A stretch of 63,534 nt of DNA, taken from Chloroflexota bacterium (GTDB lineage: Bacteria; Chloroflexota; Anaerolineae; Anaerolineales; Villigracilaceae). Shown here piece after piece: positions 22,168-34,892 of the stretch. Every line of letters starts with the position of its first letter. Position 1 is the stretch's first letter. The stretch lies in contig QMIW01000027.1 of NCBI GenBank assembly GCA_024434165.1, forward strand, positions 1-63,534, written 5' to 3'. Under the pieces are notes generated by a model. That model was not told the DNA's origin. It did no database searches and worked only from the letters and a program-made list of their open reading frames with translations. The position numbers and the translations under genes were made by a program.

Positions 22168-22362
22168 TTACTTCAACGTCTTCGAATACAACGTGAATCC
22201 GATCATCCCCAATGCCAGCCCAAGGCTGGAAACGCCCCACGAGAAAAAGTTCAGAAAATAAGTGGACTCGAGAACTTTTATGACCATCAGGAATGGCAGG
22301 ATGACGCCGCCGACAACCATCATCACCACGCCGGAATTGAGAAGCAGCAGCGGGGATTTCAT
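22168..22362 (-). CDS. Small two-helix membrane protein
   Basis: A 64-residue protein with two hydrophobic helices (about 4-28 and 34-58: LNSGVVMMVVGGVILPFLMVI and FFSWGVSSLGLALGMIGFTLY) and a short lysine tail. Its ATG overlaps the stop of the upstream ABC ATPase (ATGA), so it is translationally coupled and is the last gene of the importer operon. Function unknown; it could be an accessory of the transporter or simply riding on the operon. Confidence 0.72.
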   Translation of the reverse strand: MKSPLLLLNSGVVMMVVGGVILPFLMVIKVLESTYFLNFFSWGVSSLGLALGMIGFTLYSKTLK

Positions 22363-23372
22363 TCCGGTTCCTCCGTTCGATACAGCCAGCAGGCGACGAA
22401 ATGCCCCGGCTCGGGTTCAAAATCAACCGGCTCTTTCTCGCTGCACAACCCTGCGATGGCTTTGGCGCAGCGCGGGTGAAAACGGCAGCCCTTCGGCGGG
22501 TTCACCAGGCTGGGCGGTTCGCCGGGCGGCACTTCCTTGTAGGTGATGGAATTATCCGCATCCGGGTCGGAGGTGGCGGCGAGCAGAGCCGCCGTGTACG
22601 GGTGCAGGGGGTTATCGAGCAGGCGGCGCGTTTGGGCTTTTTCCACCAGATTGCCCGCATACATCACAAAGATGCGCTCGGAAAAATACTTGACCGTCGA
22701 AAGGTCGTGCGTGATGTAAATGACCGAGAGGCGGTGCCGCTCCTGCAGAGCGTGCAGCAACTTCAAAATTTCCACCCGCACCGAAGCGTCGAGCATGGAG
22801 ACGGGTTCGTCCGCCACGATCATCTTCGGTTCGAGGATCATCGCGCGCGCGATGACCACGCGCTGCTGCTGCCCGCCGCTCAGCATGTGCGGAAACTTGT
22901 GCAGGAAATCCTCCACCGGGTGCAGTTTCACCTCGGTCATCGTCTTGCGGATTCGCTCCAGCCGTTTCTCGCGGTCCTTCACGCCGCTGATGATGAGCGG
23001 TTCCTCCAAAATCTGCTGCACGGTCATAAACGGCGGCAGCGCCCCGTAGGGGTCCTGCTGGACGTAACCGATCTCGAAACGATAATTCCGCAGTTCTTCG
23101 CCGGTCAGTTCGACCAGATTTCTGCCTTCGAAGATGAGTTCGCCGCGCGTGGGGATGTTGATTCCCAGGATGGTTTTCATCAGGCTGGATTTTCCGCATC
23201 CGCTCTCGCCGACGACTGCCACAGTCTCCCCCTGCGCCATCTCAAAGCTGACGCCGTCCACGGCTTTGACGTATCCCATGTGGCTGAACCCGAATCGGCG
23301 CAATTCATACCAGACGTGCAGGTCACGAATGGAGAGGAGAGTCTCCCGCTGTTCCCGGATTTTCGACGACAT
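22359..23372 (-). CDS. Peptide/nickel-type ABC transporter ATPase (OppF/DppF-like)
   Basis: A 337-residue ATPase of the Opp/Dpp class. Walker A GESGCGKSS, Q-loop YVQQDPYG, signature LSGGQQQRV, Walker B MIVADEPVSMLD and switch ITHDLS are all present. The C-terminal oligopeptide-ATPase extension has NPPKGCRFHPRCAKA and a later cysteine, the site that holds an Fe-S cluster in some relatives. ATG 23372 is taken because AGAGG lies 8 bp before it; an ATG at 23378 is possible. It is separated from the partner ATPase by a DinB-like gene. Confidence 0.9.
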   Translation of the reverse strand: MSSKIREQRETLLSIRDLHVWYELRRFGFSHMGYVKAVDGVSFEMAQGETVAVVGESGCGKSSLMKTILGINIPTRGELIFEGRNLVELTGEELRNYRFEIGYVQQDPYGALPPFMTVQQILEEPLIISGVKDREKRLERIRKTMTEVKLHPVEDFLHKFPHMLSGGQQQRVVIARAMILEPKMIVADEPVSMLDASVRVEILKLLHALQERHRLSVIYITHDLSTVKYFSERIFVMYAGNLVEKAQTRRLLDNPLHPYTAALLAATSDPDADNSITYKEVPPGEPPSLVNPPKGCRFHPRCAKAIAGLCSEKEPVDFEPEPGHFVACWLYRTEEPE

Positions 23373-23404
23373 TTTCATTGCCTCTTTTAGTTCAGTGGTA
23401 TGGA

Positions 23405-23986
23405 TCATGACCGCTTTTCCGTGGCAGAGCCAAAGCCCGTCTGCAAGCCTTTCAGGCATTCCATCATGCCGAGGTGACGGCAATCGTGCGACAAAAAGAC
23501 CAGCAGGTTCAGGCGGATATTTTGCAGTTTTCGTTTCAATTCTTCGTCAACAGCATCAAGGGTGGGGTAACGCTCATCCAGCAATTGGATAAATTCTTCA
23601 AGGGCGTCGTAGGAGCGTTTGAGATAATCCAGCAATTCATCCCTGGGAGGGATGGGCAGGGTGGCGGCGACTTCATCGCTCAGACCCGTGCCGACCGTCG
23701 CGCTCAGGTCGGTGGGAAAGCCCCATTTTTGGGCGAGGTTTTCGCGCGCCCAAATCTCCACCGGCTCGCCGAAATCGGAACCCAGCTGCGGCGTGCGTTC
23801 CAGGATGATCGCCTTGAGGAAATCTGACTCACGCGCCAGATGCCAAAGGTGAAATCCAATCGAAGTGCTGTAGCCCTTCGGTCTCCAGCGCAGCTGGTCG
23901 TCGTCGAGTTCGCGGGCAAAATTCAGGACAACCTGATGAATATCCTTGAAGGAATAAAGGACGTCGTAAAGGGCGGGTGTGGGCAT
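23405..23986 (-). CDS. DinB-superfamily protein inside the ABC operon
   Basis: A 193-residue four-helix-bundle protein of the DinB/YfiT type. Helix 1 has LYSFKDIHQVVLNF; STSIGFHLWHLARESDF supplies the first metal-type histidine motif and LVFLSHDCRHLGMMECL the C-terminal one, so three histidines of a metal site are visible. Members are thiol transferases or metal-dependent hydrolases; many have no known role. GGGAGAACC precedes the ATG. It sits between the two ATPases of the importer and is read in the same direction, an unusual place; it may act on the imported solute. Confidence 0.75.
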   Translation of the reverse strand: MPTPALYDVLYSFKDIHQVVLNFARELDDDQLRWRPKGYSTSIGFHLWHLARESDFLKAIILERTPQLGSDFGEPVEIWARENLAQKWGFPTDLSATVGTGLSDEVAATLPIPPRDELLDYLKRSYDALEEFIQLLDERYPTLDAVDEELKRKLQNIRLNLLVFLSHDCRHLGMMECLKGLQTGFGSATEKRS

Positions 23987-24014
23987 GGTTCTCCCGGTGA
24001 TGTTGGTATGGGGG

Positions 24015-24980
24015 TTACATGTGCAGCCAGCACTTGACTTTGCGGTTGCCCTTCCGAAAGACCGGCGGTTCCTCACTGCACTTCTCGAAGCGGAACGGAC
24101 AGCGCGCCGCAAAGCGGCAGCCGCCGGGCGGGTTCATCAGGCTGGGCGGCTGCCCGGTGATGAAGATCGGGTCGGCGTCGCTGCGGAGGCGCGGCACGCT
24201 CGCCATGAGCATCTGCGAGTAGGGGTGCAGGGGTGCGGGGAAGAAATCCCTTGCCTCTCCCGTCTCCACGATCTGACCGGCGTACATGATGGCGACTTCA
24301 TCTGCGAGTTCGCTCGAGGTGGCGATGTCGTGCGTGATGAGGATGAAGGAGGTTCCCAGTTCGTGCTTGATGCGCTTGAGCACGTTCATGATGTTCGCCT
24401 GCGTCAGCAGGTCCAATGCGGAGGTGGGTTCGTCCAGCACGATCAAATTGGGCGAGGTGACCAGCGCCATCGCCAGCGCCACGCGCTGGCGCATCCCGCC
24501 GCTCAATTCAAACGGGTAGCGGTCTACAAAATCCGCCGGGACGCCCACATGCTGGAACATCTTGTAAACCAGCCCAAGCGCGTCCTGTTTGGTCAAGCCC
24601 AGGTGAATCATGGCGGGTTCGGCAACCTGCTCACCCACTTTCAATACGGGGTTCAGGGAATTCATCGCCGCCTGCGGTACGAGCGACATGCTCACCCAGC
24701 GCACGTTTCTGCGGTATTCCTCGTCGTCCAGTTCCATGACGTCCATGCCCTGCAGCAGGACTTTGCCGGAGTATTTATCCACATTGCGGGGCAGGAGGCG
24801 CAGCAGCGCCCTGGAAAGCGAGGTCTTCCCGCACCCGGATTCTCCCAAAATGACAACGGCGCGGTTCGTTCCCAGTTCAAAGTCCACGCCATCCACCGCC
24901 TGGACGACGCCCTTGGTGGTTTTGAAATGCAGGACCAGATCTTCGATCTTGAGCAATTCAAGCGACGGGGCGAGACTCAT
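24015..24980 (-). CDS. Peptide/nickel-type ABC transporter ATPase (OppD/DppD-like)
   Basis: A 321-residue ATPase: Walker A GESGCGKTS, Q-loop SLVPQAAMN, signature LSGGMRQRV, Walker B LIVLDEPTSALD, switch ITHDIA, and the C-terminal NPPGGCRFAARCPFRFEKC motif of the Opp/Dpp family. ATG 24980 overlaps the stop of the permease gene (ATGA) and is preceded by GAGG. It forms a heterodimer with the OppF-like product, powering the permease pair. The long upstream extension of the same frame runs inside the permease gene and is not used. Confidence 0.9.
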   Translation of the reverse strand: MSLAPSLELLKIEDLVLHFKTTKGVVQAVDGVDFELGTNRAVVILGESGCGKTSLSRALLRLLPRNVDKYSGKVLLQGMDVMELDDEEYRRNVRWVSMSLVPQAAMNSLNPVLKVGEQVAEPAMIHLGLTKQDALGLVYKMFQHVGVPADFVDRYPFELSGGMRQRVALAMALVTSPNLIVLDEPTSALDLLTQANIMNVLKRIKHELGTSFILITHDIATSSELADEVAIMYAGQIVETGEARDFFPAPLHPYSQMLMASVPRLRSDADPIFITGQPPSLMNPPGGCRFAARCPFRFEKCSEEPPVFRKGNRKVKCWLHM

Positions 24981-26314
24981 ACTTCCCTCAGCCTGGGGTT
25001 GAAGATGCGGTCCAGCGCAAAGCCAAGCACGGCGAACGCAAGACCGGTGATCATCAGCAAAGCCGCCGGTTCCAGCACCCAGTAGTAATATCCCTTGAAA
25101 AGGGCGCCGTTGGACTGGGCGTCCTGGATGATCTTGCCCCAGGTCGGCAGGACGGGGTCGCCCAAGCCGATCACCGCCAGCGAGGCTTCGAGGAACACGA
25201 ACGCCGGCACCGCCTGCACCAGGCTCGGAATCAACAGGGGAATCATGCGCGGGATGAGATACATGAAGATGATGCGCCAGTTGCTTGCGCCGTACGCCTT
25301 TGCCGCTTCGATGTACATGGATTCCTTGACTTGCAGGAAGATGGCGCGGTATCCCAAAATGGCGCCGGTGAAAATGCTCAGCAGGATGGTGGCGGTCAGA
25401 ATAACCCAGATGCTGCGGGAGTAAAACGTCCCGATCATGATCAACAGCGCAAAGAACGGCAGGACGAGGTTGACCTCGGTGATGCGCTGAATCAATTCGT
25501 CCACCCAGCCGGAATACCACGTCCCCACCGCCGCGATGATCATGGTCAGCACCGTGGTGCCGATGGCAGCCATCAAGCCGAACGCCAGAGCCACAGGCGC
25601 ACCCCAGAGGAGCGGCAGGGTCAGGTCGCGGCGGGCGTGATCCGTACCGGCAAGACCGAACACCTGTCCGTGAGAAACGAACTCCATGTCCATGGTCGAA
25701 TCGGGCTCAAAGGTGGTGCCGATGACGATGAGTTTGTACGTTCCCTTCAACACGTCCCCGCTCTCCGGGTCGGAGAACAAAGCCGGGATGACCTCATCCG
25801 TCCGCAGTTTGGCGCGCAGTTTCTCGTCCTGAGAGAAGCGGTAGGTGAACTTGTTTCCGATGACGAAGTTCGCAATCCGAATCGTGCGGTTATCGGGCGT
25901 GACCAGTTCAATCGAGACGAACGGCTGCTTTGCCTCGAACGTGGAATTGAAGTACAGGATCATGTCCTGCGGGTACACATCGTAGTTGAAGTCGAACTCA
26001 TGCACCATTTCGTAGGTGGTGGAGTCGTTCTTGCCCGGCGCGGCGGTTTTGGTCATTTCGCCTTCGGCAGTGCTTACGGCAAAGGACTCGGAATACTTTT
26101 TGCTGGAAAACAGATTGACCCATGCGGGCTGCGCAAACTTGGGGTTTTGATACCAGACATCCTCCCCGCCCCGCCACAGGCGGATGGCTTCGGAATAGGG
26201 GATTGTGATCATGGTGTAGATGGATACGGCGACCAGCACCAGGATGGCGGCAATGCCAACCAGCGCGGAGGGATACATCAGTAACTTCTTGAAGGATGCT
26301 CTCAAATTATTCAT
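24977..26314 (-). CDS. ABC permease (OppC-like) with large extracytoplasmic insert
   Basis: A 445-residue permease. Helix 1 (about 14-38) is followed by about 190 residues outside the membrane rather than the usual 50-60, including a beta-rich part (DVYPQDMILYFNSTFEAKQPF, then LKGTYKLIVIGTTFEPD). The normal OppC core then begins with FGLAGTDHARRDLTLPLLWG, five more helices, and the EAA loop EAAKAYGASNWRIIFMYLIP. ATG 26314 lies 4 bp after the previous stop; a GTG slightly upstream is possible. The insert could dock the unusual binding protein of this operon, which is inference. Confidence 0.87.
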   Translation of the reverse strand: MNNLRASFKKLLMYPSALVGIAAILVLVAVSIYTMITIPYSEAIRLWRGGEDVWYQNPKFAQPAWVNLFSSKKYSESFAVSTAEGEMTKTAAPGKNDSTTYEMVHEFDFNYDVYPQDMILYFNSTFEAKQPFVSIELVTPDNRTIRIANFVIGNKFTYRFSQDEKLRAKLRTDEVIPALFSDPESGDVLKGTYKLIVIGTTFEPDSTMDMEFVSHGQVFGLAGTDHARRDLTLPLLWGAPVALAFGLMAAIGTTVLTMIIAAVGTWYSGWVDELIQRITEVNLVLPFFALLIMIGTFYSRSIWVILTATILLSIFTGAILGYRAIFLQVKESMYIEAAKAYGASNWRIIFMYLIPRMIPLLIPSLVQAVPAFVFLEASLAVIGLGDPVLPTWGKIIQDAQSNGALFKGYYYWVLEPAALLMITGLAFAVLGFALDRIFNPRLREV

Positions 26315-26318
26315 GGCA

Positions 26319-27440
26319 TTACTCACCAATCTTTACCCTGGGATCCACGAGCGCATATACAAAATTGAGAATGAACACGGTGATCGCCAGCAGGTAGGCG
26401 TAGATGACCGTCGAGCCGACGATGATCGGCGTATCGTATAAACCGATCGCCTGGAAGAGCGTCCTGCCGAGCCCGGGCCACAGGAAGACGGTTTCGGTAA
26501 ACAACGCGCCCGTCCACAGACCGATGAGCAGGAGCGAAAAGTTCGTGATGATGGTCGGCAGGGTGGGGCGCAGGATATAGCGCCGTTCGATATCCCTGGC
26601 TTGCAAGCCCTTGGCGCGCGCCATGTCCACATAATCCTCGCTGGAGTAGATGAGGAAGAAGGTGCGGTAGTTGTACACGCTCAGGAAGAAGGAACTGATG
26701 ATCAGCGAAAAGCCGGGCAGGGCAAGATGCTTCAAAACGCTGATGGCGTAGTCGAACGGGTTGGAAGGCGGCGGGGAATCCACCATGCCGCCAAAGGGCA
26801 GAATTTTCAACCCCGCCGCAAAGATAAGGATGAGAAAAATTCCATAGAACCAGGGTGGCACGGCGGAGGAGGGCGACAATGCAATGATCAACTTATCCCA
26901 GAAACTGCCGTAGCGCCGCGAAAGGTTGAGCGCGATGAAAACGCTGGAGAAGAACAGGAACAACTGCGACGTGCCCATCAACAGCAGGGTGGCGGGCAGG
27001 CGTTCGAGCAGGATGAGGCGCACCTGCTTCGAGCCGCTGTCGCTCGTGAGGTTGAAGGCACGCCCGAGGTCCAGTTGAAGCGCGTTGGAAAGATAGCGGA
27101 AGTTACGAATGGCGATGGGCGTATTCAGCCCGCGGCGTTTTTCCTCCAGCGCGATCCGGTCTTCGATCAACTGCCTGCGGGTCTCCGGGTCCATTTGCTG
27201 GTAGGTCGGGCTTGCAGAGACGGATTGCGTCACCGTATCCCGAATCTGTCCGCGGATGATCTGGTCCACGAAACCGCCCATGTTGGCGATCAGAATTGTG
27301 AGATACACGCCGACCACCACCGTGGTGAATAACGTCAACAGGCGCACCGCCACGTAACGGGTCAGGCGCACGAATGTGCTGTTTAGAAATCTTTTCTTTA
27401 TGACAAATTCTTCCGAAGGGGCATGGGTGGTGACGGACAT
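26319..27440 (-). CDS. ABC permease (OppB-like)
   Basis: A 373-residue permease with six helices. An N-terminal cytoplasmic tail precedes helix 1 (about 31-52), then an extracytoplasmic domain of about 90 residues with LQLDLGRAFN, the usual OppB landmark. The EAA loop reads MARAKGLQARDIERRYILRPTLP, and the C-terminus ends LNFVYALVDPRVKIGE, a standard OppB end. With the OppC-like protein it makes the channel. It begins 77 bp after the binding-protein gene, across a perfect 13-bp hairpin. Confidence 0.9.
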   Translation of the reverse strand: MSVTTHAPSEEFVIKKRFLNSTFVRLTRYVAVRLLTLFTTVVVGVYLTILIANMGGFVDQIIRGQIRDTVTQSVSASPTYQQMDPETRRQLIEDRIALEEKRRGLNTPIAIRNFRYLSNALQLDLGRAFNLTSDSGSKQVRLILLERLPATLLLMGTSQLFLFFSSVFIALNLSRRYGSFWDKLIIALSPSSAVPPWFYGIFLILIFAAGLKILPFGGMVDSPPPSNPFDYAISVLKHLALPGFSLIISSFFLSVYNYRTFFLIYSSEDYVDMARAKGLQARDIERRYILRPTLPTIITNFSLLLIGLWTGALFTETVFLWPGLGRTLFQAIGLYDTPIIVGSTVIYAYLLAITVFILNFVYALVDPRVKIGE

Positions 27441-27517: not shown

Positions 27518-30097
27518 TTATTGAACGACGAAGTCGAACGAAGTGAAAGCCGGGATTGCCACCGGGATCGGGACAACCGCCACTTCCAGTTTCGCCGAAC
27601 CGGTCGCCAGCTGGGATGTGGCTTCCGCATCCAGCGCGACCTGGAATTGACCTTCGCCCACAGCCTGCGCGTCGCCGATGGCAACCACCGCGCCGGTGGT
27701 ATCGTACAGGATGTACTTCACCTGCTTGATATCCTCGTTGGCGTACGGCTCGTCCTTGAAGTTGACGATCACATCGAAGACCGCTTCTTCACCAGCCGTC
27801 ACCTGTCCGGGACCATCGAGCACCACGGTGGCGCGTTTCGGGTCGCTGAAGGAAGACCAGCGGTTGGCAAGATCGGGGAAGTCGGCAAAGTGTTTGAGAA
27901 CGAGAGACTTCTCGGTGGTAAAGACCTGATCCAGGTAGTAAGGACCGGTGCCGAGCCAGAAGTGGCCGTGATCGGCATACCACTTGTTGAGGTTCTCATA
28001 ACGCAGGGCGGCTTCCTCCGGCGTCAGGAACTGGCTGAGGGTCGCTTCGTACGGAATATAATTCTCAGCCTGCGCCTGGTCAAGATATTTCTTCAAAACC
28101 TCGAGGCTCGGGCCGCCAACCCAGCTCATCTGTTCGATCTGTTCCAGGTCCGCCTTGTCGGCAGAGTAGGCAACTTCGCCCGCGGCTTCAGCCAGGTTGG
28201 AAACAGCCAGAATCTGCCAGCTGTTTTCGCCCGAAAGACCGGTGGGGGAACCGGGCCAGAGCGGCAGGACGTTCAACTCCGCATCGGCATTGTAGGAATC
28301 GCTGTAGTATTCGATGGTGAGCGGGTCGGTGGAGGTAATGCGCCAGCCCTTGAAGGAAGGCAGGAACGCATCCACTGAAAGCGCAGCGGATTCATCGTAG
28401 ATGGGGCTTTCCGGCTTGGCGCGGTCGAGGAAGACGATGAACGGCATCACGAAGTCCGCAACGGAGATCGGGCTGCCGTCGTGCCACTTGACGGTTTCAA
28501 ACAGGTCGGCGGGATAAACCACAGTGCTCTTGACCTTGGCGGTGGTGCCATCGGGGAATTTCTCGCCTGCGGTGATAAAGGTTTGGTCGGCGGCGTTCCA
28601 GTCCACCCACGCATCTTCGGGAACCGGAATTTGGTCCACTTCGGTAACGGTCAGCCAGTCGAGGTTCTGGACAATCGGCAGACCGGCTTCGTATTCGAGG
28701 GTGGCGCTTTCGATGCGCTGGGGCCAGGCAAGACCCGTGTACGGATCCGCCATCAGACCCTGACCGCCGCTCACAGGAGATGCACCCATACTGGTGGCGC
28801 GCCAAATATTGGAATCCCAGACCCAATTGGAGCCGGCAATGGTGTTCCACGGCTGGGTGAAGAGGTCGTTGGTGCCAACGCGCATCGTGCCGCCCTCCTG
28901 GTCCACAAGGCGCAGGTTGTAGTTGCCCATGGCAGCCGATTCATAACCGGCGGCAAGGTCATAGGTGACCGACACGTTATTGTTGTACGGAGCGTACACC
29001 AACTGATCCACGACCCACACAAAGAGCGAATCTTCGAGCGAGAGTTCCAGCGCGCGCGCCATCATCTCATCGCGTTCTTCCTTGGTGGAGAAGTTGCCCT
29101 GCGCAAGGTCGTCGCCGAGTTTCTGCAATTCGGGGTCGGCGACATTGGAGATGAAGGGCTCGCTTGCCTGGATGCTGGTGGGCAGATAATACTGCTGGAT
29201 ATTGCCGCGCTCGTCGCGGGTCAAGCCGGAGGGCAGGTAACCGGCAGTGTAGAGATTCCACTGACCCGCCCTGGCATCGGTACCGAGCCAGATTGGGAAC
29301 GCCTCAGAGGAGGTCTTGTACTGGCGGTCCACGGTGAAACCGACGGCTTCCAATTGATTGGAGACGTAATCGCCCATCGGCTGGCGGGTGCCATCGCCAT
29401 CGGAGCGGATGAGGAAGATCAGGGTCACGGGCGAACCGTTGTACTGCCACTTGCCGTCATCGCCCAGCGTGGCGCCCATGCCTTCCATTTCAGCCGTAAT
29501 GACTTCCTTCGCCTTGTCGAGGTTGTAGGCATACTTGGTCTCGAGCGCACGGGCGGTCGCGATCAGGTTGGTGTATTCCACCAACTGCGTGGTGATCGGC
29601 AGGAGTTTGGGCAGGGAACCGCCGCCGTAGATCTCCTGATTGATGTAATTGCGGTCAATCAGCCAGTTCATCGCTTCGCGGATCTTGCGGTTCGAGAAGG
29701 GATTCAGGACGTTGGCATCCTCGAACACGGCGGGGTTAAGGCTGATGCCGTAATTTCCACCGTAGGACTGGGTGTAGTTCAAGCCCGCATCCTTGATGTC
29801 CTGCAGCGTATCGGAAGACAGATTGAATGAATAAAAATCAATCGCGCCGGCTTCCAGTTGGGAAATCGCTGAATCGGACGAGACCACGGAGAACACGATT
29901 TCATCCAGCCAGCCGCCGCGGCGATCGGTGGCGGGGACTTCTTCCGTCGCGGCGGGTTCTTCCGTCGCGGCTTCCTCTGTCATGACTGGTTCCTCGGTCG
30001 TTGCGGGACCTTCGGAGGTCGCAGGCGCGCACGCAGCAAGCGCCATGCTCAAAACCACCAGCACACTCAAGAGAGCATATAATCTTTTGATCTTCAT
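27518..30097 (-). CDS. Circularly permuted family-5 solute-binding lipoprotein
   Basis: An 859-residue lipoprotein (lipobox ALAAC, C23; then a Glu/Thr-rich linker to 58). The domain order is unusual. Residues 62-400 match the C-terminal half of DppA/OppA-like proteins (DEIVFSVVSSDSAISQLEAG; FSNRKIREAMNWLIDRNYI at 134-152; then the final strands). Residues 402-750 match the N-terminal half (GGTMRVGTNDLF, VKWHDGSPISVADF at 536-549, GTGPYYLDQ at 716-724). So the chain appears to start at the normal middle and end there. Residues 755-859 add a beta-sandwich tail. GGAGAAAAGAGTA precedes ATG 30097. It leads the ABC importer operon; ligand unknown, peptide or oligosaccharide by family. Confidence 0.85.
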   Translation of the reverse strand: MKIKRLYALLSVLVVLSMALAACAPATSEGPATTEEPVMTEEAATEEPAATEEVPATDRRGGWLDEIVFSVVSSDSAISQLEAGAIDFYSFNLSSDTLQDIKDAGLNYTQSYGGNYGISLNPAVFEDANVLNPFSNRKIREAMNWLIDRNYINQEIYGGGSLPKLLPITTQLVEYTNLIATARALETKYAYNLDKAKEVITAEMEGMGATLGDDGKWQYNGSPVTLIFLIRSDGDGTRQPMGDYVSNQLEAVGFTVDRQYKTSSEAFPIWLGTDARAGQWNLYTAGYLPSGLTRDERGNIQQYYLPTSIQASEPFISNVADPELQKLGDDLAQGNFSTKEERDEMMARALELSLEDSLFVWVVDQLVYAPYNNNVSVTYDLAAGYESAAMGNYNLRLVDQEGGTMRVGTNDLFTQPWNTIAGSNWVWDSNIWRATSMGASPVSGGQGLMADPYTGLAWPQRIESATLEYEAGLPIVQNLDWLTVTEVDQIPVPEDAWVDWNAADQTFITAGEKFPDGTTAKVKSTVVYPADLFETVKWHDGSPISVADFVMPFIVFLDRAKPESPIYDESAALSVDAFLPSFKGWRITSTDPLTIEYYSDSYNADAELNVLPLWPGSPTGLSGENSWQILAVSNLAEAAGEVAYSADKADLEQIEQMSWVGGPSLEVLKKYLDQAQAENYIPYEATLSQFLTPEEAALRYENLNKWYADHGHFWLGTGPYYLDQVFTTEKSLVLKHFADFPDLANRWSSFSDPKRATVVLDGPGQVTAGEEAVFDVIVNFKDEPYANEDIKQVKYILYDTTGAVVAIGDAQAVGEGQFQVALDAEATSQLATGSAKLEVAVVPIPVAIPAFTSFDFVVQ

Positions 30098-30476
30098 TAC
30101 TCTTTTCTCCTTAATCAGATTTGAATGGGACGAAACGACTTTCATGACATTTTGCAACCAACCACCTCCTCGTCAAAGGGTGCAGGTAGAAGCAGAAGGC
30201 GGAAGACCAGTCATCAACCGGACTCCGCCTCTGCATGAATGCGTTCATCTTCTTGGAGGAAAAATATCCGCATGTGCTCCCATGATACGTAGTCCGGGCG
30301 CCGCTGTCATGCGCCGCGAAAATCGGTTTCGCCCCTACATCTGAACGGTTCGAGCCCGGTAGTTTGCGTCTCCGCCAATCGGTCCTTTCGGCGTGAAAAA
30401 ACCCTACTGGAGTATTGGATTACACACCCCGCCCGGGAAGCCCGAAGCGCCCAAATTGCTTATAATACAAAGAGAT
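30098..30476. other. Divergent spacer between ABC operon and large sensor kinase
   Basis: No gene is seen. Minus strand: TTGACG (30176-30171), 16 bp, CAAAAT (30154-30149) is a weak promoter candidate for the ABC operon. An inverted repeat GCAGAAGGCGGA (30192-30203) / TCCGCCTCTGC (30224-30234) lies upstream. Plus strand: TATAAT at 30461-30466, 11 bp before the kinase ATG, predicts an almost leaderless kinase mRNA. Confidence 0.55.
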
Positions 30477-33400
30477 ATGCGCAAGATTCTGTTTTTCTGG
30501 ATATTCCTCCCCGCCATCCTCCTGTCATCGTGCGGGACGCAGCCCGCGGCCGTCGAGCCGGAACAAACCGCGCCCGCCTCTCCCCCGGACCCGGCGCCTG
30601 TTTCCCCCCAGGAGGACTCGTTCATCCCTTATGGCAAGAACATCCGCTTCGAACGACTCAGCCTCGAAGAAGGGCTGTCGCAAAGCGTTGTGAACGTCAT
30701 CCTTCAGGACCGCAAGGGCTTTCTTTGGATCGGCACAGACGACGGACTCAACCGTTACGATGGGTACAATTTCAAAGTCTACAAACCCGAGACGAACGAC
30801 CCCTTCAGCCTGAGCGACCGCTCGATTACAGCCATCGTGGAAGACCGCAGCGGAAACCTCTGGGTCGCCACCCGCACAGGCGGATTAAACCGCTACGACC
30901 CCATTACCGGGAAATTCATTCACTACACGAACGACAAGAACAACGACCAGACCATTGCCAGCAACCGCGTCAACGCGTTGGCGCTCGATGAAAACGGTCT
31001 ATGGATTGGTACCGACAACGGACTCGATTACCTCGATCTCCAAACCTACAAACTGACCCACCACCCCTCAACTGCAAGCCCCATCAAACTGAAAAGCAAA
31101 TCCATCTCCTCCCTGTTCATCGACTCGACCGGGAGGCTGTGGATAGGCACCCTCGATTCGGGCGTCGGCTATTACGACCCGGCATCTGGTACGTTCAAGA
31201 CCTTCAGGAACAACCAATACAATTCCAACAGCCTGAGCAGCAACCGCATCTTCTCCATTGCCGAAGGACAAACCGGAGAGATATGGATCGGCACAGGCAA
31301 CGGGTTGAACCTTTACAACCCCGCCGAAAACAATTTCATCCGCTTCAAGAACTCCAGAGACTTCCCCGCCAGTCTCGCCGGGAATGTGGTTTACGCCCTT
31401 TTCACCGACCGTTCGGGCGGGCTTTGGGTGGGCACCAACATGGGCTTGGATCGGTACGACCCGCAGGAAGGCGCCTTCATCCACCACCAGTACCAGCCGA
31501 ATGTACCCAACAGCCTGAGCAACAACGAAGTGCGGTACATCTACGAGGACGACAGCGGCGTCCTCTGGGTGGGCACGTATGGCGGCGGCTTGAACAAATA
31601 CAACCGCCAGCAGGACCGCTACGCCTACTTTCGCCATAACCCCGACGACCCCGAAAGCCTGAGCAGCAATCTGGTGTTCGCCATCCTGCCGGATGAAAGA
31701 GACCAGGTGTGGGTTGGAACCATAGATAACGGACTGAACCTGTTCAACCCGAAGACGGAAACGTTTACACGCTTCATACATGACCCCGGCGACTCAGCCA
31801 CCATCGGCAGCAACAGCGTCATCTCGCTGTACAAAGACCGGGACGGGGTTTTGTGGGTTGGAACGGGCGGCTCGCTCGACCGCTACAACCGCGGAATAAA
31901 GACTTTCTCCCATTTCCAGCCGGAGGAAGCCGACCTCAGCGACCCCTCGCGTTTTGCCGTGTTTGCCATCCTTGAGGATTCAATGGGCAGTTTCTGGGTT
32001 GGCTCGAACCGCGGGCTTCTCCTCTTCGACAGGGAGACAAAAACCTTCTCCGAGTATAAGACCGGTGGAGACGACCCCAACTACTTCAGCAGCATCAGGA
32101 TCAACGCCCTCTTCGAAGACGACGACCAAAACCTATGGGTCGGCACCTACGACAACGGCTTGCAGCGCATCAATCTGGGAACCGGCGAGGTCGCCTTCTA
32201 CCGCAACAACCCCGCGGACACATCCACATTGGGCAACAATACCGTTCTGTCCATCTACCAGGATACGGGCGGCACGCTCTGGGTCGGCACAAACGGCGGC
32301 GGCTTGAGCCGCTACAACCCTGAGACCGAAACCTTTACCAATTTTACGGAATATGAAGGGCTATCGAACAATGTGGTCTATGGAATCCTGGAAGACGAAA
32401 CCGGCAAGCTGTGGCTCAGCACCAACTTCGGGTTGTCGAGGTTCGACCCCGTCAACCGCTCCTTCCGCATCTTTACCGCCAGCGACGGTTTGCAAAGCAA
32501 CGAGTTCAACCAGAATTCCTACGCGAAAGACCGCAACGGCACCATGTATTTCGGCGGCATTAATGGGTTGAACATATTTGTCCCACAGGAAATTACCGAC
32601 AACCAGTATACCCCGAAGATCGCGCTGACATCCATCACGCTGGACGGCGTTCCCCTGGACGGAGAGCAGACCACCGAATACCTGGATACCATCACACTGA
32701 CCTGGCCCCAGGACTCCTTTGAATTCGAGTTTGCCTCCTTCGCCTACGAACAACCCTCGAAAAATCAGTACGCCTATATGCTGGAGGGCTTCGACACGGA
32801 CTGGATCAACATTGACAATCAACGGAACGGGCGATACACCAACCTTTCCGGCGGAACGTACACCCTGCGGCTGCGCGGCTCGAACAGCGACGGGGTTTGG
32901 AACGAGGAAGGCGTGGCGATTCAGGTGATCGTCGTGCCGCCCTTCTGGGAGACCTGGTGGTTCCGCAGTCTGTTCGTCATCCTCTTCGGGCTGAGCGTGG
33001 CAGGCGGATTGCGCTGGCGCGTAAAGAGCATCGAAAACCAAAACCGGGAACTGGAGCGCCTGGTCAGGAAACGGACCGCAGACCTGGAAAAGCGCACCGG
33101 CGAAATCGAGGCGCTGTACCAGGCGGACGAAAAGATTTTGCGAAGCGTCACCCTCAACCACATTTTCCAGACCCTCGTGGATGTCTCGGTCTCCATCCTC
33201 AAGGCAGATCGCAGTGTGGTCCTTACCTGGAACGAGGAAAAACGGAAGATCATGCCGCGGGTCAGCCACGGATTCCAAGCGGCGTCGCTGGCTGTCCTGA
33301 ACTTCAATCAGGATGAGGGCGTGATCGGGATTGCCGTCAAAACCGGCACCGCCGTTATTGTGGCGGACCTTGCCCGCGCCTCCTTCCGCGAAGATGTCAG

Positions 33401-34220
33401 AGCAGCCATCCAAAACGAGGGTATCCAATCCTTCGCACACTTTCCCATCGTGGTGGACGGCAAGGTCATCGCCATCTTCAGCGTGGCGTACACCCGCCCC
33501 AACGCGCTCACCAAGGATTCCGCCCGCCTGTTCACGGCGCTGGTCAACCGCGCCGCGCTGTCCATTGCGAACATGGAACTCTTCGAGCAGACCAAGGACC
33601 TGGCGGTGATGGAGGAACGCAACCGCCTCGCCCGGGACCTGCACGACAGCGCAAAGCAGAAGGCATTTGCCGCCCTCGCCCAACTGGGCATCGTCAACGG
33701 CATGGCGCGCGTTGTTCCGCAGGAGGTCGCCCCGCATTTGACCGAAGCGGAGACTTTAATCTACGAAGTGATTCAGGAATTGAACTTCCTGATTCAGGAA
33801 ATTTACCCGATTGCCCTACAGGAAAAGGGACTGCAAACCACCCTGCGGGAGTACGTTTTCGAGTGGGAGCATCGCAATGACGCCATTGTAAACCTGACGA
33901 TCCAGAACGAACGGCAACTGCCGCTCGAAATGGAACAGGCGGTCTACCGCGTCATCCAGGAGGCGCTCGCCAACATTGCCCGTCACAGCAAGGCAAAGCG
34001 GGCGGATATATCGCTCGTTTATAATCATGAAGTGCTCCAGGTAATGATCGCGGACGATGGCTGCGGCTTCGACATGAATCAGAAGGCGAAAGGCATGGGC
34101 TTCCGCTCCATGCGCGAACGCATCAGCAGCATCCGTGGAACGCTTCAGGTGCAAAGCGCGCCCGGTCAGGGAACCCGTCTCATCATCCAGATTCCCACCA
34201 GGAACGGCACAGGAGATTGA
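30477..34220 (+). CDS. Giant hybrid-type sensor: propeller, Y_Y_Y, GAF, histidine kinase
   Basis: A 1247-residue sensor kinase. The N-terminus is a lipoprotein signal (LLSSC, C19). Residues 50-700 hold about 14 two-component-regulator propeller repeats (FLWIGTDDGLNRYDG, LWVGTNGGGLSRYNP and so on), making two seven-bladed propellers outside the cell. A Y_Y_Y domain (about 730-820), a single membrane helix (about 826-846), a coiled linker and a GAF domain (about 880-1025) follow. The kinase is of the HisKA_3 class: MEERNRLARDLHDSAKQ holds the phospho-accepting His, HATPase has DDGCGFD and GMGFRSMRERI. It pairs with the NarL-type regulator 3 bp downstream. Sensing of carbohydrate or polymer is typical for relatives; the ligand here is unknown. 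Confidence 0.92.
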   Translation: MRKILFFWIFLPAILLSSCGTQPAAVEPEQTAPASPPDPAPVSPQEDSFIPYGKNIRFERLSLEEGLSQSVVNVILQDRKGFLWIGTDDGLNRYDGYNFKVYKPETNDPFSLSDRSITAIVEDRSGNLWVATRTGGLNRYDPITGKFIHYTNDKNNDQTIASNRVNALALDENGLWIGTDNGLDYLDLQTYKLTHHPSTASPIKLKSKSISSLFIDSTGRLWIGTLDSGVGYYDPASGTFKTFRNNQYNSNSLSSNRIFSIAEGQTGEIWIGTGNGLNLYNPAENNFIRFKNSRDFPASLAGNVVYALFTDRSGGLWVGTNMGLDRYDPQEGAFIHHQYQPNVPNSLSNNEVRYIYEDDSGVLWVGTYGGGLNKYNRQQDRYAYFRHNPDDPESLSSNLVFAILPDERDQVWVGTIDNGLNLFNPKTETFTRFIHDPGDSATIGSNSVISLYKDRDGVLWVGTGGSLDRYNRGIKTFSHFQPEEADLSDPSRFAVFAILEDSMGSFWVGSNRGLLLFDRETKTFSEYKTGGDDPNYFSSIRINALFEDDDQNLWVGTYDNGLQRINLGTGEVAFYRNNPADTSTLGNNTVLSIYQDTGGTLWVGTNGGGLSRYNPETETFTNFTEYEGLSNNVVYGILEDETGKLWLSTNFGLSRFDPVNRSFRIFTASDGLQSNEFNQNSYAKDRNGTMYFGGINGLNIFVPQEITDNQYTPKIALTSITLDGVPLDGEQTTEYLDTITLTWPQDSFEFEFASFAYEQPSKNQYAYMLEGFDTDWINIDNQRNGRYTNLSGGTYTLRLRGSNSDGVWNEEGVAIQVIVVPPFWETWWFRSLFVILFGLSVAGGLRWRVKSIENQNRELERLVRKRTADLEKRTGEIEALYQADEKILRSVTLNHIFQTLVDVSVSILKADRSVVLTWNEEKRKIMPRVSHGFQAASLAVLNFNQDEGVIGIAVKTGTAVIVADLARASFREDVRAAIQNEGIQSFAHFPIVVDGKVIAIFSVAYTRPNALTKDSARLFTALVNRAALSIANMELFEQTKDLAVMEERNRLARDLHDSAKQKAFAALAQLGIVNGMARVVPQEVAPHLTEAETLIYEVIQELNFLIQEIYPIALQEKGLQTTLREYVFEWEHRNDAIVNLTIQNERQLPLEMEQAVYRVIQEALANIARHSKAKRADISLVYNHEVLQVMIADDGCGFDMNQKAKGMGFRSMRERISSIRGTLQVQSAPGQGTRLIIQIPTRNGTGD

Positions 34221-34223
34221 CGT

Positions 34224-34892
34224 ATGAAACACCATCGCACAAGCATATTGGTCGTGGACGATCATGAAGTGGTACGCAACGGAATCCGTTCCTACCTTGA
34301 AAAGATTTCGGATTTCCACGTGGTCGGCGAAGCGGCTTCCGGCGAAGAGGCGTTGAGCCTGGTCGGCGAGATGATCCCGGATATTGTTCTGCTCGACCTG
34401 ATGATGCCCGGCATGGACGGCATCGAAACCACGCGGCGCATCCGCCAGATCAGCCCGCGCACGAAGGTCGTGGTGTTGACGTCCTATCACGAGGATGCGC
34501 ATATCTTCCCTGCCTTGAAAGCGGGCGCAATTTCCTACATCCTCAAAGACATGAAAATGGACAAACTGGTGGATGTCCTGCACCGCGCCGTGCAAGGCGA
34601 GGTCACGCTCCACCCAAGGGTGGCTTCGCGGGTGCTTCAAAACATCCGCGGCGAGGGCAGCGAACAGCCGCTCTTCACCGAGTTGACCGACCGCGAGACC
34701 GACGTGCTCAAACTCATCGCCAACGGGCTGACCAACAGTCAGATCGCGGAGAAACTGGTCATCAGCGAGAACACCGTCAAGGGGCACGTCAGCAACATCC
34801 TTAGCAAACTGCATTTGGCAGACCGGACGCAGGCGGCGGTTTATGCCTGGCAGCAAGGGATTGTCAGCAGGCAGAGCGAACTGAAAGGATGA
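34224..34892 (+). CDS. NarL/LuxR-family response regulator
   Basis: A 222-residue regulator: receiver domain (residues 8-124) with acidic pocket DD (12-13), phospho-acceptor D in VLLDLMMPGMDG, conserved T/S in VVLTSYHED and K in YILKDM. The C-terminal LuxR helix-turn-helix (about 152-215) reads LTDRETDVLKLIANGLTNSQIAEKL-x-ISENTVKGHVSNIL. It starts 3 bp after the giant kinase, is surely its partner, and ends in a bidirectional terminator. Target genes are unknown; the divergent ABC importer is the nearest candidate. Confidence 0.94.
   Translation: MKHHRTSILVVDDHEVVRNGIRSYLEKISDFHVVGEAASGEEALSLVGEMIPDIVLLDLMMPGMDGIETTRRIRQISPRTKVVVLTSYHEDAHIFPALKAGAISYILKDMKMDKLVDVLHRAVQGEVTLHPRVASRVLQNIRGEGSEQPLFTELTDRETDVLKLIANGLTNSQIAEKLVISENTVKGHVSNILSKLHLADRTQAAVYAWQQGIVSRQSELKG

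Follow-up and report, generated by a model that had tools for sequence, protein, structure and literature searches.

The gene at positions 27518-30097 (minus strand) of a 63,534-nucleotide stretch of Chloroflexota DNA (contig QMIW01000027.1, positions 1 to 63,534; the whole stretch is hereafter called the window) most probably encodes a lipoprotein that binds substrate for an Opp-type importer and is a natural circular permutant of a family-5 binding protein resembling OppA of Thermococcus kodakarensis. We place the probability of this reading at about 0.88. In canonical members, the N-terminal half (NL) precedes the C-terminal half (CL), and the window protein carries these halves in the order CL-NL, termed R1. 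A second rotation, termed R2 (CL2-NL-CL1), was detected among relatives in a bacterial family coded f63. A permuted binding protein of an ATP-binding cassette (ABC) importer is as such already known, and what surprises most is the apparently recurrent second rotation.

The open reading frame (ORF) encodes 859 amino acids plus a stop codon; it starts with an ATG at 30097, immediately 5' of which lies AAGGAGAAAAGAG, and stops at 27518. Its annotation as a circularly permuted solute-binding lipoprotein was derived from the ORF, PF00496 and the comparison of family profiles with the T. kodakarensis OppA structure (7fi3). A signal peptide with a lipobox (residues 1-23, LAAC at 20-23; 30029-30097) and a linker rich in Glu, Thr, Pro and Ala (residues 24-57; 29927-30028) were recognised in the sequence. 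The canonical C-terminal half is placed first, as the CL block (residues 62-400; 28898-29914), and the canonical N-terminal half second, as the NL block (residues 402-757; 27827-28894); the canonical C-terminus is joined to the canonical N-terminus around residues 392-408 (28874-28924). The chain ends in a strand-rich, beta-sandwich-like domain (residues 760-859; 27521-27820) assigned from predicted strands and a FlgD_ig match (E 1.3e-3) below the Pfam cut-off. All these features lie on the minus strand. An earlier note on this DNA had located landmark motifs of the fold, and these sit at the residues claimed, namely, DEIVFSVV from 65, REAMNWLIDRNYI at 140-152, GTMRVGTND at 403-411, VKWHDGSPISVADF at 536-549 and GTGPYYL at 716-722. 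The lipobox and Glu/Thr linker that it placed at the new N-terminal end are present, and its beta-sandwich at the new C-terminal end corresponds to the strand-rich domain. The ratio of non-synonymous to synonymous substitution rates (dN/dS) between the window gene and relatives was 0.05-0.11 in five of six pairwise comparisons, the sixth being saturated, and the window protein is therefore under purifying selection.

The swapped order was evident when the halves were aligned separately. The whole window protein matched PF00496 (SBP_bac_5) with 107 bits (gathering cut-off 32.4, E 1.5e-30), which was its sole match at E ≤1 among the Pfam binding-protein families. Residues 62-400 alone aligned to PF00496 positions 148-350 (E 6.9e-26), and residues 402-750 alone aligned to positions 25-140 (E 2.3e-5, 24.1 bits), so that positions 148-350 precede 25-140 in the window protein; because of this non-collinear order, it was filed as a circularly permuted variant rather than an ordinary family-5 member. 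A profile built from seven canonical paralogues that the window genome encodes gave a similar picture: after the signal peptide, the first block started at position 237-248 in 41 of 41 rows, which include some genes fetched twice, and was followed by a weak lower-position (N-half) block in 38 of them; none reached the cut-off in the other three (L020, L050 and L051). Using hhalign, the CL profile aligned to canonical columns 257-550 (E 1.2e-23) and the NL profile to columns 131-186 (probability 70.6, E 3.9e-5). 7fi3 was the best PDB match for both halves: the NL family profile covered its residues 62-307 (E 1.9e-28; the sole PDB match at E ≤0.01), and the CL family profile covered residues 327-618 (E 3.4e-41). 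These half-profile matches place the cut in the chain between residues 307 and 327 of 7fi3, that is, in the YW loop. Both halves are thus homologous to one canonical protein, with their order swapped and the cyclic order kept. The earlier note had claimed that the landmarks of the DppA/OppA fold occur in swapped order, that the old termini are joined at about residue 400 and that the new chain ends lie near the YW loop; PF00496, the paralogue profile and the 7fi3 half-matches bear out the first claim, and the join and the cut agree with the other two. It had also stated that residues 62-400 aligning before residues 402-750 on the profile would count against its proposal, and the opposite order was found.

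The structure prediction and overlay that the earlier note had proposed as a check also yielded halves in swapped order. Residues 353-666 of the AlphaFold2 model (410-723 of the protein) superposed on 7fi3 63-332 (Z 19.0, 2.4 Å, 217 aligned), and residues 54-307 of the model (111-364 of the protein) superposed on the C-terminal half of AppA (1xoc 242-490; Z 15.1, 3.7 Å, 215 aligned). The swapped order holds at the level of sequence and of half-folds.

The permuted family occurs across Chloroflexota, beyond one gene. The window genome holds a second permuted binding protein (G000:C130, 51% identity) with its own opp operon, and permuted orthologues were found in G026 and G021, each assembled as a single contig, and in G032 on a contig of 4.74 Mb. 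Some match was present in 56 of 61 genomes (the window genome and relatives), many of these covering the signal and linker region only. A whole-protein profile match at E ≤1e-20 was obtained in 38 of 400 Chloroflexota genomes, and the NL profile at E 1e-5 matched the identical 38; at most two (whole-profile search) or five (NL search) first-look candidates were scored per genome. In total, 95 ORFs were typed, of which 85 were complete by the script criterion, and merging the ORFs of one gene left 77 complete distinct genes. These comprised 56 genes of order CL-NL-IG (IG, the C-terminal strand-rich domain) and 17 of order CL-NL, giving 73 R1 genes together, as well as four R2 genes and none of order NL-CL; orthologues of the same order, which the earlier note had suggested seeking, therefore exist. 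Six of the ten partial ORFs reach a contig or locus end (one is a cut R2 gene), two represent one frame-broken gene and two are weak matches in canonical proteins. A permuted gene broken into two ORFs of different frame was observed at L102 5628-8471 (G004:C17), owing to a frameshift or a sequencing error. A pattern scan of genome contigs, with close relatives only in reach, returned 15 loci, of which 13 were permuted (records titled Anaerolineales, Anaerolineae or Anaerolinea) and two were signal/linker matches in Oscillospiraceae. Among plasmid sequences, seven records aligned to portions of the C-half block, with identities of 21-29%.

The permuted gene heads an oppBCDF operon in the window, in which two BPD_transp_1 permeases and two ABC ATPases with oligo_HPY adjoin the binding-protein gene. 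An OppB-like permease (26319-27440), which matches PF00528 and the NCBIfam Opp permease models, and an OppC-like permease (24977-26329) are followed by an OppD-like ATPase (24015-24980) and an OppF/DppF-like ATPase (22359-23483), all on the minus strand, and a DinB_2-family ORF lies between the two ATPase genes (23405-24112). The OppC-like protein carries a large insert of about 190 residues upstream of its permease domain (25655-26200, minus strand), consisting mostly of beta strands in an AlphaFold2 model with a mean predicted local distance difference test (pLDDT) of 79.8 (140 of 182 residues ≥70). Its place after the first membrane helix suggests that the insert is extracytoplasmic; searching the insert against the PDB gave weak matches only (best E 3.3e-4, template modelling (TM) score 0.41, 9.4 Å) and no assignment. 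An OppC lies next to the binding protein at 37 distinct permuted loci; its alignment starts at query residue ≤25 in 36 cases and at residue 58 in L154 (contig end), so that 36 OppC proteins cover the insert and that of L154 covers it almost entirely. OppC-like matches aligning only from residue 228 were found in L103 and L104, which are canonical operons whose OppC does not span the insert, and in second operons of L098 and L099; further matches start at residue 143 (L151, 384 amino acids) or 328 (L020, a 141-residue piece at the contig start), and nothing matched OppC at L105 and L106, two further canonical loci. Seven permuted loci had no OppC in the stretch fetched, three of which are cut or near a contig start (L107, L146 and L150; the others are L094, L155, L158 and L160). 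In the window, the binding-protein gene also adjoins a divergent sensor kinase (Reg_prop/Y_Y_Y/GAF/HisKA_3) and a LuxR-type response regulator (30393-34892), a possible regulator.

The second rotation was defined by architecture ahead of any tree. A search of 84 genomes of the bacterial order to which the f63 member with locus L095 (CL2-NL-CL1) belongs gave matches in seven, and the R2 order was present in five ORFs of four genomes (G444, G477 with two, G491 and G492). These ORFs are L095 5849-8122, L154 10725-13115 and L155 215-2554; L153 1-2259, which begins at nucleotide 1 of its contig, yet possesses a signal peptide and a stretch resembling a ribosome-binding site; and L159 3-1886, whose start is cut by the contig end. 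The cut falls in the same C-lobe hairpin turn in all four complete R2 proteins: their C-termini read GKYLYLAP, GKYYYLAP, GRYRYSEPED or NEYWHYQVS, and their CL2 blocks begin with IEVVCLVR, VTVKLLIR, VELTVVIR or IEIDFIIR soon after the signal or anchor segment. The corresponding turn of the window protein, GKWQYNGSPVTLIF (residues 215-228; 29414-29455, minus strand), lies between two predicted strands and is uncut, with the cut site of the relatives falling between GKWQYNG and SPVTLIFLIR. The R2 linker from NL to CL1 resembles the R1 C-terminal tail (WLFLMDP) followed by the R1 post-lipid linker (P-rich, HTGAWVDEV), the arrangement that head-to-tail fusion of R1 copies would be expected to leave in R2. 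The R2 operons at L095, L153 and L159 keep the oppB, oppC and ATPase genes; L154 has OppC and ATPase genes up to the contig end, and none of these genes is on the contig of L155.

In a 62-row tree, the R2 proteins fell in four separate places. An approximately unbiased (AU) test on a 20-row subset rejected a single R2 clade with all columns (p 1.6e-18) and with NL (3.7e-17), CL1 (5e-4) and CL2 (4.4e-5) separately. A second alignment (MAFFT tree) rejected it as well (AU p 3e-51), together with a grouping of L128 and L130 (p 9e-5) and two threesomes (p 6e-56 and 8e-101), these sub-groups having been picked after the tree was seen. The R2 protein L128 groups with the R1 protein L085, and the R2 protein L130 groups with the R1 proteins L136, L141 and L145, in NL, CL1 and CL2 alike; L128 and L085 are sisters with 57-59% identity in all three parts. 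These rejections and tree positions imply that the order switched between R1 and R2 three times or more, unless gene conversion scrambled the signal.

Several points weigh against the reading of the window gene as a permuted binding subunit. The NL half reached 24.1 bits, under the Pfam whole-protein cut-off of 32.4. When the window protein was rotated back, its highest single-domain score with the distant paralogue profile rose from 35.8 to just 39.0 bits (≤2.6 in 100 shuffles); the test is a weak one, given the distance between the NL half and those paralogues. The whole AlphaFold2 model, built from a 14-row alignment, was mediocre (mean pLDDT 58.7, predicted template modelling score 0.43); therefore, only the halves support the family-5 fold, not the assembled two-lobe arrangement. 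Some f63 members lacked OppC in the stretch fetched (L094, L146, L155, L158 and L160). Furthermore, no close relative of canonical order was found, since the 48 NL matches in the 400 Chloroflexota genomes (at most five candidates each) were collinear with the permuted profile or typed as R1 or R2, and no fused-tandem intermediate occurred among the 95 typed ORFs, so the direction and route of the R1 step can only be inferred. An assembly artefact, in which fragments of canonical genes were joined in the wrong order, might be suspected as the named relatives are metagenome-assembled genomes; misassembly was ruled out by the R1 order in 73 of 77 complete distinct genes, in the same-genome paralogue and in single-contig genomes, and the in-frame joins and purifying selection also argue against it, leaving a practically negligible chance. 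The absence of OppC from some fetched stretches, together with fusions, recognised by eye, to a Ser/Thr kinase (L107, at a contig end) and a metalloprotease-like region (L094), would suit a protein acting mainly as a sensor or surface-display module rather than as the binding subunit of the importer, but opp genes adjoin the window gene and the 37 distinct permuted loci, and we regard such a role as very unlikely.

The route by which the permutation arose was considered at both steps. Tandem duplication may have produced it: for R2, the simplest route would be that two tandem R1 copies fused head to tail and the outer pieces were lost. Tandem R1 genes are present in L090 and L092; around the R2 gene L095, a search for tandem remnants gave nothing better than E 0.08 outside the gene (ORFs >25 amino acids). 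Fission of a family-5 protein into two genes, followed by re-fusion in the opposite order, could instead have generated R1. None of the 95 typed ORFs contains a complete NL or CL block twice, which agrees with this route, but no stand-alone CL or NL gene was found either, all ten partial ORFs being otherwise accounted for, and the tandem R1 copies speak for duplication; we therefore hold fission and re-fusion to be somewhat unlikely. As for R2, it may have arisen once, with gene conversion or recombination with R1 copies scattering R2 sequence over the tree. The shared hairpin cut of the four complete R2 proteins fits a single origin, as does the grouping of L095 with L127 in the CL1 tree (support 83/72) and the MAFFT tree (74/91), which is not strongly supported. 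However, NL, CL1 and CL2 each reject one R2 clade, and to account for the placements of L128 and L130, conversion would have had to act to either side of the second cut in two or more lineages, so a single origin appears unlikely to us. We lean slightly towards a binding-protein lineage that switches rotational isomer repeatedly, in which R1 spread in Chloroflexota and tandem fusion with re-trimming then gave R2, at the same hairpin cut, at least three times within one family.

The permuted binding protein is conserved and probably folds normally. Its old C- and N-termini are joined by a short linker, and its new ends are opened at a surface loop past the YW motif. Because successive elements still follow one another in the same cyclic order, the chain can form the usual two-lobed 'Venus flytrap'. 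The permuted chain keeps its spatial neighbours except at the one opened loop; from what is known of the family, the flytrap would therefore close on a peptide and dock on OppB/OppC as usual. Homology and the operon suggest that the ligand is a peptide and that it is transported by the importer, with the lipoprotein capturing it outside the membrane and handing it over to OppB/OppC; the partner OppC here bears the extra strand-rich domain, which may have a docking role, and the transport mechanism itself is presumably unchanged. Judged by the domain limits assumed for OppA, R1 opens the chain within domain I and R2 within domain III, which would leave both lobe-to-lobe crossings intact. We had considered that permutation might render each lobe contiguous and eliminate one hinge crossing, but discarded this idea because these limits put the R1 cut inside domain I and retain both crossings.

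Several architectural variants were observed among the relatives. At L107 (2-1915), one ORF cut by the contig end combines a Ser/Thr protein kinase, a membrane helix and the start of a permuted binding domain, and its neighbours are PP2C-like and von Willebrand-like ORFs (named by eye); no second kinase fusion of this type was seen among the matches listed for 18 genomes of its family. L094 (4980-8225) has an extra N-terminal region of about 380 residues with a metalloprotease-like motif, HEIGHTLGLDD (by eye), fused to the permuted binding domain. Two permuted binding proteins flank one opp operon at L156 (1450-4113 and 9834-12422), with N-terminal extensions that resemble InlB B-repeats (by eye). 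An insert of about 85-95 residues lies inside the NL block at L098 (5515-8439), L099 (5294-8245), L101 (5679-8528) and L152 (6953-9883). Some divergent members have a C-terminal membrane helix (L088, L096 and L097) or a Tat-like signal (L091) in place of the lipobox (by eye), which means that the mode of anchoring does not depend on the permutation.

Compared with known systems, the window protein differs from canonical members in the order of its parts. T. kodakarensis OppA, an archaeal oligopeptide-binding protein crystallised with an endogenous pentapeptide according to the title of its PDB entry (7fi3), is arranged NL-CL; the window protein is CL-NL and adds a lipobox linker and the C-terminal strand-rich domain. 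Relative to DppA/OppA/AppA (SBP_bac_5, cluster C), its CL half superposes on AppA (1xoc), with the profile order swapped. In Treponema pallidum, the tethered lipoprotein MglB-2 (Tp0684), classed as 'Type Ic / Cluster Bc', serves an ABC importer as binding protein and is likewise a natural circular permutant; it was reported to bind glucose and to keep the ligand-induced conformational change (PMC4990184). Its fold is that of cluster B sugar-binding proteins, the permutation lies inside the N lobe and the chain crosses the hinge a fourth time (PMC4990184); the window protein belongs to family 5, its only match at E ≤1 among the Pfam binding-protein families being to SBP_bac_5 and none to the cluster B periplasmic sugar-binding proteins. 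A second rotation is present among relatives of the window protein (in f63), and the accessible part of PMC4990184 describes none for MglB-2. The earlier note was aware of no described family-5 binding protein of this order. No permuted family-5 binding protein was found in the open PubMed Central literature, subscription papers being mostly outside reach; a permuted ABC binding protein of another structural class has been published (MglB-2). Natural permutants are known in other folds, such as saposin/swaposin and DNA methyltransferases, and the two main models of their origin are duplication and fission with fusion, of which duplication predicts tandem intermediates (PMC3320104).

Natural circular permutations are usually regarded as two old end states, and f63 holds two rotations side by side. 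Sisters of different rotation, such as L128 and L085, make the permitted cuts, the intermediates and the effect of rotation on binding directly testable. The swapped order splits profile matches into pieces, which matters for annotation, and the family is relevant to biosensor design, where permuted proteins are built deliberately, and to the question of how a binding protein docks once its tether is relocated. The family provides an unusual natural record of the survival of a protein after re-cutting; if the repeated switching is true, circular permutation would be a recurring and tolerated evolutionary route for a working ABC importer subunit, limited to a few permitted turns.

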